Assembly: GCA_002733575.1 (NCBI GenBank)
Contig: NVWB01000151.1
Span: forward strand, 1-64,000
Length of the DNA: 64,000 nt
Direction of reading: 5' to 3'
Source: Blastopirellula sp.
GTDB taxonomy: Bacteria > Planctomycetota > Planctomycetia > Pirellulales > Pirellulaceae
Position 1 is the first letter of the stretch. Each line of letters begins with the position of its first letter. Made by a program: the position numbers and the translations under genes. Below, in pieces: positions 19,642-35,720 of the stretch. Below the pieces are notes generated by a model that worked only from the letters and a program-made list of their open reading frames with translations, was not told where the DNA came from and made no database searches.

Positions 19642-19693
19642 AAAATGTCTCTTGTTTGATTTAAATTTCACCAGGGTCACACGTCAAAACCTC

Positions 19694-20353
19694 AGTCCCG
19701 ATAGGGACGCAGTCACCTAGCCTGGGGATTTATCCCCAGGGGAAATGCCAAAAACACCCAAAGTCCCGGATGGGACGACGTCGAGTTGTAGAGGAAACAT
19801 CATGGCCACCACCTACACCAATTTGCTCTACCACATTGTTTTTAGCACCAAGCATCGAGAGCCTTTGATTACCAAGGGATTACAAGCAGAACTCTACAAA
19901 TACATCGGCGGCATCGTTCGTGATGAAGGTGGGTCGCTAAAAAAAAATGGTGGGATGCCGGATCATGTTCATCTGGTTGTTCGTTTTAAAGCAAACGATT
20001 CGATTTCTCATTTAATGCAACGGATTAAGGGGAATTCTTCTAAATGGGTGAACGACCATGTTGATCAAAAAACAAAATTTGCATGGCAGAAGGGTTACGC
20101 GGCGTTTTCGGTGAGTGAATCGCAGTTGCCGGTGGTCCTAAAATACGTTCAGGGTCAGGGAGAGCATCATCAAGAGCGTTCGTTTAAGGACGAGTTTTTG
20201 GCCCTGTTGCGAAAGCATAAGATCGAGTTTGATGAACGGTATGTTTGGGATTGATTGTTCATATTCGACGTCGTCCCGCTGGGACTTCTGAGAGCGGGGC
20301 ATTTCCCCTGGGGATAAATCCCCAGGCTAGGTGACGCAGTCCCTTTCGGGACT
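19694..20353 (+). mobile_element. REP-associated IS200-like element with ~90-bp inverted arms
   Basis: A 660-bp unit. The left arm (19694-19785) and right arm (20265-20353) are inverted copies. Each holds three hairpins in order: an outer GTCCC-N4-GGGAC, a central CCTGGGGATTTATCCCCAGG and an inner GTCCC-N4-GGGAC followed by GACGTCGA. Between them is one transposase gene, 19802-20254. The layout resembles RAYT transposases flanked by REP/BIME sequences, but the arms here are long and complex. A solitary arm is at 32848-32940. Confidence 0.8.
19802..20254 (+). CDS. IS200/REP-associated tyrosine transposase (Y1 HUH)
   Basis: This 150-residue protein is the normal size for Y1 transposases. Start ATG 19802 is preceded by GAGGAA at the right spacing; the earlier in-frame ATG at 19745 lies inside the left arm and is unlikely. 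The HUH motif is HVHLVV near residue 59 (MPDHVHLVVRF). The catalytic tyrosine is in LKYVQGQGEHHQERSF, and the opening YTNLLYHIVFSTKHREPLI is diagnostic of the family. The enzyme nicks and joins single-stranded DNA at hairpins; the flanking hairpin arms are its likely substrate. The gene looks intact and so may be active. Confidence 0.92.
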   Translation: MATTYTNLLYHIVFSTKHREPLITKGLQAELYKYIGGIVRDEGGSLKKNGGMPDHVHLVVRFKANDSISHLMQRIKGNSSKWVNDHVDQKTKFAWQKGYAAFSVSESQLPVVLKYVQGQGEHHQERSFKDEFLALLRKHKIEFDERYVWD

Positions 20354-20671
20354 GAAAAACGACCCTTATAGCGGCAATTGTTTTGTCATCGAGTATGTTT
20401 CCAATATGTGAATTGAGAATTTATTATCATTGTCTTCCAAAGAGAACACATTGTAACAACTGTTGAGTTGAAAGCAAAATTGTCCATTCTCACCATCCTA
20501 CTTTGCTAGAGGAAGGAAAGTGATGTTAAAAATGCTCTAAAACGCTCAATCCGCATCCTCCCAATTCAACTTCAGCAGATTTCTCTTGCTGGACGATCTA
20601 TATTTGATAGAATCTTAGGTGCAATAGTTCTGCTATTGCCTCATTTCACTCCCTTTCCCCATGCGAACATC
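20354..20671. other. Intergenic region after the transposase element
   Basis: This AT-rich gap lies between the right arm of the mobile element and the first DUF1501 gene. It must hold the promoter for the DUF1501 gene. I see no clear hairpin, RNA gene or repeat. Confidence 0.3.
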
Positions 20672-32832: not shown

Positions 32833-32847
32833 AGGGTGCGATTTTAA

Positions 32848-32940
32848 AGTCCCGAAAGGGACGCAGTCACCTAGCCAGAGGATTCATCTCCTGGGGACGA
32901 TGCACCAACTGAATGGAACTCCCAGCGGGACGACGTCGAG
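32848..32940 (+). repeat. Solitary arm of the REP/IS200 element
   Basis: This 93-bp arm has the same order as the left arm at 19694-19785: GTCCCGAAAGGGAC, GCAGTCACCTAGCC, a central (here imperfect) hairpin, the inner CCCAGCGGGAC hairpin and CGACGTCGAG. No transposase follows; the next gene is a small Cys-rich protein on the other strand. It begins 16 bases after the ClC stop codon. Confidence 0.8.
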
Positions 32941-32961
32941 TTTTGAAAAACCGTTGATCCC

Positions 32962-33156: not shown

Positions 33157-33255
33157 GGTTTTTAATTTTCTTGTTCAATCATTACAAAATATAAAAACTG
33201 AAGTGTTAGAACCTTTTATCGCCTGAACTCTGTTCCTGAGCCCAATAAATCCCGT

Positions 33256-33270
33256 CCCTTGCGGGACTAA
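33256..33270. repeat. REP hairpin, same core as the IS200 arms
   Basis: GTCCCTTGCGGGACT forms a GTCCC/GGGAC hairpin identical in stem to the outermost hairpin of the mobile-element arms, in the inverted orientation relative to 32848. Followed by AAAAAT, as at 35414. Confidence 0.6.
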
Positions 33271-33389
33271 AAATAAAACTAATCATAAGTAGTGAAACGG
33301 AATTACATGGCCTCTTTTGTGGTAGTTATGAACTGATAGACTATATTAATGAAGTGAACTGGTTTTATGTAGGCAATGGTATCAGAAAA

Positions 33390-35413: not shown

Positions 35414-35720
35414 GGCGTCCCTTTCGGGACTAAAAATGAAGCAGTTCAGAAACTCACTTCAAACACTGCACCTTGGATCGCAAAACATTCTTCTTTGTAA
35501 ATTATTGGGTTCATATACTTTGAATTTCTTTGACTTAGAACAGATATTCTGATACGAAGGTATTCTAATTGTTTTCTTTTTCGTGCTTTTTGTGTCTTTC
35601 GTGGCTCATTCTTTTTTACCACGAAATGCACGAAAATAATTTTAGGACGCAATTATTACGCTGATGTTTACTTTTCGATGCGATCTTTCACGATTACTCC
35701 TTTCCAAAGCAAAATCTCCC
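35414..35720. repeat. REP hairpin, direct-repeat fragment and inverted repeat upstream of the SGNH-like gene
   Basis: GTCCCTTTCGGGACT at 35414-35428 is a REP hairpin. TTCAGAAACTCACTTCAA at 35440-35457 repeats the same 18 bases at 33407-33424, so the acyltransferase gene is flanked by direct repeats. An imperfect inverted repeat (TTTTTCGTGC...TTTCGTGG with CCACGAAATGCACGAAAA) is at 35577-35637. The rest shows nothing. Confidence 0.45.

Follow-up and report, generated by a model that had tools for sequence, protein, structure and literature searches.

The tnpA locus of the Blastopirellula sp. DNA analysed here (a stretch of 64,000 nucleotides, hereafter the window) is best explained, with a probability of about two in three, as a REPtron-like system, in which a low-copy, vertically persistent HUH/Y1 transposase of subclass 1.2 (TnpA) lies between two inverted arms of ~95 nt and the same arms are dispersed as non-autonomous repeats. 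The relevant features of the window are as follows.

19691..19787, + strand: left arm (H1-H2-H3); inverted repeat of the right arm, covariance model (CM) 97 bits, ssDNA fold z -3.0
19695..19708, + strand: H1 of the left arm, GTCCC GATA GGGAC; from sequence and family covariation
19717-19720, + strand: CTAG foot of the left arm; relatives mostly have GTAG/nTAG
19721-19740, + strand: H2 of the left arm, CCTGGGGATTTATCCCCAGG, 20 nt; from sequence
19763-19776, + strand: H3 of the left arm, GTCCC GGAT GGGAC; from sequence
19777-19784, + strand: 3' tag GACGTCGA behind H3 of the left arm; tag and stem covary with arm subtype
19802..20254, + strand: tnpA, 150 aa, HUH/Y1 transposase with the subclass-1.2 signature; PF01797, NCBIfam, motifs and AlphaFold2 model
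20263..20356, - strand: right arm, inverted copy; CM 83.6 bits, ssDNA fold z -3.9
20273-20285, 20307-20326 and 20339-20352, - strand: H3, H2 and H1 of the right arm
20525..20539, + strand: GTTAAAAATGCTCTA, end of a separate TA-type MITE family; 28 sites in the genome, 0 in the control
32845..32941, + strand: orphan arm without a transposase; CM 72.4 bits, E 1.1e-12
33254..33273, + strand: solo outer hairpin H1 with CTAAAAA tail; genome pattern count
35417..35436, + strand: solo outer hairpin H1 with CTAAAAA tail; genome pattern count

The two arms beside tnpA are complementary over 58 nt at 93% and a further 13 nt at 100%, with an inverted-repeat score of 106 compared with a maximum of 22 among shuffles. 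From the outside towards the gene each contains H1 (GTCCC-4-GGGAC), a 12-nt gap ending in CTAG, H2, a gap of ~22 nt, H3, and GACGTCGA. Folded as single-stranded DNA both are more stable than shuffles; the centroid of the left arm consists of exactly three hairpins, and the right arm forms H1 and H2, with neighbouring pairing in competition with H3. The orphan arm is a genuine member of the family by its covariance-model score, though it folds poorly on its own (z -0.6, ssDNA against shuffles). Both solo hairpins carry the outer-hairpin signature GTCCCNNNNGGGACTRAAAA, which is present 39 times in the genome and 0 times for a reversed control. An Rfam search of the region gave no matching family. 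The inverted three-hairpin arms, the orphan arm and the single hairpins had all been proposed in a first-pass annotation of this DNA, and its coordinates are right to within a few bases.

The tnpA reading frame is intact, again as first annotated, and encodes HUH (DHVH), WQ (WQKGY) and tyrosine (YVQGQGEHH) motifs. TnpA matches Pfam Y1_Tnp (PF01797; E 5.5e-29) and the NCBIfam IS200/IS605 model (79.7 bits; cut-off 55), and scores 35.9 bits with the NCBIfam REP-associated model (REP_Tyr_transpos), below the cut-off of 80. Positions that are invariant across 55 homologues include both HUH histidines, W95-Q96, Y115 and the HH pair behind Y115; Y---Q--HH is kept in nearly all of 79 homologues examined, and the C-terminal tail is conserved (F..E...LL......YDERY.W). 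The AlphaFold2 model (mean pLDDT 90.9) has ISDra2 and IS608 TnpA as its nearest folds and also matches the REP-associated transposase structure 4er8.

These characters correspond to subclass 1.2 of the TnpA_Y1 proteins, which in the 2018 classification is marked by DH[IV]H, WQ and Y---Q--HH motifs, a length of ~148 aa, a C-terminal extension and a low number of divergent copies (Quentin et al. 2018, PMC6006769). The window protein has all three motifs, its length of 150 aa and conserved tail agree when judged against the published description, and the genome has two intact copies that are 73% identical; a survey of genomes of the same family found no more than five per genome. Two features differ from the published account (PMC6006769). 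The subclass is described as not IS-like and mainly from Cyanobacteria and Bacteroidetes, whereas here it is in PVC bacteria, Acidobacteriota, Geobacter and others; and it is listed as "REP: no", without REPs or terminal structures, whereas here there are dispersed inverted three-hairpin arms, at least 141 of them in this genome and some in 35 of 38 homologue genomes. The lack of REP association is a published observation on subclass 1.2 and not a sequence criterion.

The first-pass annotation had called the gene a REP-associated transposase. In the strict sense of RAYT/TnpA_REP this name does not apply, as the protein has Y---Q--HH rather than Y---NP and falls short of the REP-associated model. 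Two other Y1 proteins in the genome (L178 on contig C298 and L179 on C346) do contain Y---NP (YVHQNP); they are class 2, TnpA_REP-like, and close to each other. A short open reading frame (L003; C246:3107-3310) matches only the C-terminal half of a subclass-1.2 transposase and is an apparent remnant.

A covariance model built from 43 of the genome's own arms identifies at least 141 arms at E <= 1e-3, compared with the two intact transposases of subclass-1.2 type; the arm number is a lower bound because 150 of 2188 candidates were scored. The second intact transposase (contig C123) is likewise framed by arms, although of a different type: the window tnpA has arms with a CTAG foot and a GTCCC H3, and the C123 gene has a GTAG foot and a GCCCC H3. 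Both subfamilies are mirrored among the dispersed arms, with a GTCCC H3 in none of 42 GTAG-foot arms and in 21 of 36 others (p 1e-9). Within the genome, covariation of the hairpin stems gives 69 double-sided cells compared with 22 in shuffled data (0/500 as high), and the signal is lost with slid partners. The arms for this test were picked by sequence; it is the unbiased one of two covariation tests, since the cross-phylum arms (below) had been chosen for hairpins.

The closest other arm to a window arm is 88% identical, and no near-identical pair of either arms or transposases was seen in the genome; there is thus no sign of recent movement, and the earlier description of the family as active or recently active is not borne out by either these arms or the 73% identity of the transposases. 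Several arms have variant forms. One locus (L021; C175:33267-33434) has tandem arms with a hairpin in common, H3 of the first being H1 of the second, and overlapping matches of this kind are also present in genomes G065 and G008. In another (L022; C406:40701-40797) H2 is enlarged to a long perfect palindrome that includes a GTCACCTAG foot, and the right arm of L007 (C377) has about five copies of the unit GGGGCTTTCTTGAATTG between H3 and H2.

The arms accompany the transposase well beyond this genome. Homologues (80 taken from other species) are from Planctomycetota, Verrucomicrobiota, Acidobacteriota, Chlamydiota, Geobacter, Sumerlaeota and Bacteroidota, with taxa taken from record titles, in which some MAG labels are of doubtful accuracy. 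Most of the genes are flanked by strong inverted repeats, and arms are found on both sides in Planctomycetota, Verrucomicrobiota, Acidobacteriota, Chlamydiota and Geobacter. A triple-hairpin scan of 79 homologues places 110 of 157 arms above the 95th percentile of control flanks, with 42 loci doing so on both sides. Spacing is mostly H1 stem 5-6, gap 11-13, H2 stem 8-9, gap 19-25 and H3 stem 5-7, and the H2 foot has the consensus nTAG (T 74%, A 75%, G 94%), CTAG being the window version. The H1 and H3 sequences of an arm are coupled and are alike beyond chance (p 0.0002), so that one module seems to be present twice. Covariation across phyla gives 90 double-sided cells compared with 24; these counts are for a subset with mostly 3-nt loops, used because a single MAFFT alignment of all the cross-phylum arms mixed 3- and 4-nt loops. 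None of this had been part of the first-pass annotation.

Searches with the arm model show 1-95 arms per genome in the 35 matching homologue genomes, including 21 of the 24 that contributed no sequence to the model. The three misses among the 38 are all Bacteroidota, in which the arm has the form H1, ~8 nt, GGTAG, H3, without H2. These shorter arms are also dispersed, with 42 pattern matches in Flavilitoribacter and 0 in the control, and are inverted doublets in the copies inspected. In the same-family survey TnpA is present (E <= 1e-20) in 84 of 149 genomes, and a generic arm model detects arms in 82 of these and in 25 of the 65 without the gene (Fisher p 1e-16, which overstates independence because the genomes are related); the median is 20.5 arms per genome with the gene and 0 without, counted up to 28 per genome in all 149. 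The arms are a property of subclass-1.2 transposases and, as first annotated, they belong to the gene. The 25 arm-bearing genomes in which the gene was not detected count against the REPtron-like reading. Eight same-family genomes (G007, G025, G037, G040, G080, G087, G112 and G128) have many arms and no detected subclass-1.2 gene, which reflects loss of the gene, gaps in the assemblies or movement of the arms by another agent.

Dispersed arms are mainly inverted doublets with H3 on the inside, and in several genomes 13-17 nt separate the two arms. Individual copies have unrelated sequence beyond H1 in 14 of 18 cases in genome G148 and in 10 of 14 in G083; copies end at H1, and the doublet is thus the unit in these two genomes. 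G148 also contains an internally deleted tnpA between arms, plausibly a step from element to doublet. In G148 a doublet separates dnaN from the gene next to it; five congeners lack this doublet, and two of the five carry a single hairpin at the position. The dnaN intergenic regions of the six congeners yielded no nucleotide-exact empty site, being too diverged for more than presence or absence to be demonstrated.

The situation in the Blastopirellula genome is complicated by a MITE family with ends TAGAGCATTTTTAAA...TTTAAAAATGCTCTA (28 sites, 0 in the control; L066-L093), also missing from the first-pass annotation. Outer flanks of arms are common to copies in 36 of 52 cases in this genome, which counts against the REPtron-like reading, and a TAGAGCATTT-like end lies within 210 nt of 54 of 85 arm outer flanks (shuffled 11), mostly at ~64 or ~118 nt. 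Arm doublets here thus lie for the most part inside a MITE whose ends are TA-GAGCATTT...AAATGCTC-TA, and a different element may have spread them in this genome; that the MITE targets TA is suggested by its ends. The conserved outer flanks ending in TAGAGCATTT also led us to reject a description of these copies as simple REPINs. MITE contents vary and include arm doublets, a second palindromic module (GACGACGTTCCGAATACGTTTGATCCCGAAGCACAGCC...) and others. No left MITE end matching GTTAAAAATGCTCTA was seen next to tnpA, and the relation of the GTTAAAAATGCTCTA end to the tnpA element is uncertain.

The arms could be cargo of this TA-targeting MITE (TAGAGCATTT...AAATGCTCTA), moved by an unrelated transposase, with tnpA located between two copies by chance. 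The MITE ends at two main distances from the arms, the MITE copies with other contents, and the doublets of a further genome (G016), where outer flanks are also common in 23 of 37 cases, all agree with this. It does not account for the arms on both sides of the gene in several phyla, their co-occurrence with it, or the two genomes in which most doublets end at H1 with unrelated flanks, and we consider it quite unlikely as a general explanation; most likely it applies only to this genome, and as secondary amplification; here the second MITE has probably multiplied many doublets, and its transposase may have done so. Complete domestication of TnpA, which would bind or cut arms in the service of the host (replication-fork, repair or mRNA-end structures), the arms having spread long ago or by recombination, fits the low number of divergent copies within a genome (73% identity here), the long persistence of the gene (84/149 genomes) and the resemblance of the solo hairpins to terminators. 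It is nonetheless unlikely, as three findings speak for movement at some stage: the doublet that one congener has at an orthologous site and others lack, the internally deleted element, and the cognate arm subtypes.

An ordinary IS200/IS605 insertion sequence with chance flanks was the alternative named in the first-pass annotation, for the case of arms confined to this locus. The above-cut-off Pfam and NCBIfam matches and the fold favour it, and the HUH/Y1 core and subterminal hairpins are in common with IS608 and ISDra2. However, those elements lack inverted-repeat ends and a dispersed arm population, and have near-identical copies (mean 99.4% in subclass 1.1), whereas the arms here are inverted repeats rather than distinct left and right ends and the transposase copies are 73% identical. 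The number of arms already refutes this alternative, and their structural conservation across phyla and the lack of near-identical IS copies in the genome also contradict it; we regard it as very improbable.

REPtrons proper (class 2 TnpA_REP/RAYT with GTAG REPs and REPINs/BIMEs) similarly have a gene between inverted repeats, repeats far in excess of genes, inverted doublets, and a hairpin (here H2) with nTAG at its 5' foot. The likeness, flanking by inverted REPs with a GT[AG]G foot together with dispersal, is one of architecture only: the protein here is class 1, the arm measures ~95 nt and has three hairpins, fixed in their spacing, rather than one REP of 20-40 nt (an end structure whose distinctness had been noted from the start), and the Bacteroidota version lacks H2 and keeps GGTAG. 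The arm excess, the arm-gene link and the end structure of the first-pass interpretation hold; strict RAYT identity and recent activity are not supported. TIRtrons (Di Nocera et al. 2013, PMC3733652) also have a Y1 gene between long inverted repeats that are sometimes moderately repeated and dimeric, but these TIRs are mostly described as unrelated to REPs (PMC3733652) and 20 of 26 TIRYTs belong to subclass 2.1, the other six to 2.2 and 2.5 (PMC6006769). The locus is not a TIRtron, as its repeats contain REP-like hairpins and its protein motif is class 1. CGTC-tagged REPs are also described in PMC3733652. H3 read on the opposite strand is often preceded by CGTC or TGTC, but stems are 5-7 bp here and 8-9 there, and those REPs reportedly adjoin no transposase gene; because the stems differ, the similarity is one of tag only and serves as a lead.

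In the dispersed copies the arms are mostly joined as inverted doublets, with a short linker in place of the gene. In the proposed mechanism, an arm or doublet would become single-stranded, for example on the lagging-strand template, allowing H1 and H3, as equivalent modules, to fold, along with H2 and its nTAG foot where present. A TnpA dimer would bind the folded hairpins, its tyrosine would cleave beside them with nTAG or the 3' GAC tags as guides, and TnpA would move or copy the doublet to new sites. The catalytic residues of TnpA are intact; we infer binding, cleavage, the guide role, the single-stranded intermediate, and spreading by TnpA rather than another enzyme. GTAG has a role in the recognition of known REPs and, for one system, also in cleavage-site choice (PMC8266576), and the conserved nTAG may by analogy act likewise. 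Survival of GGTAG in the H2-less Bacteroidota arms suggests that nTAG is the key site and that H1 and H3 are the bound hairpins. Because the arm ends are inverted copies either strand would offer the same substrate, unlike in IS200/IS605.

The novelty lies in a REPtron-like system for a subclass that was believed to be without REPs; published work recorded no such repeats. No newer report on subclass 1.2 or on such arms was found in the open-access article texts searched; an earlier partial sighting is possible (e.g. in R. baltica or Geobacter). Subclass 1.2 had been classified as neither IS-like nor REP-associated, and its role was therefore open; a structured repeat family across phyla now provides its likely substrate, and TnpA activity becomes testable with ready-made oligonucleotides. 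The arm family accounts for a large class of the hairpins found between genes in planctomycetes. A bolder and tentative proposal, about which we are doubtful, is that subclass 1.2 constitutes a separate, widespread line of ssDNA transposases that builds its own tripartite arm (an nTAG site between two equivalent hairpins, a central hairpin being optional), having arisen or been tamed independently of known RAYTs, and is perhaps the partner so far lacking for some of the REP-like hairpin families that bear CGTC/TGTC-like tags in deep-branching bacteria. The system offers a second setting, outside class 2, for how ssDNA transposases become long-term residents with repeats of their own.
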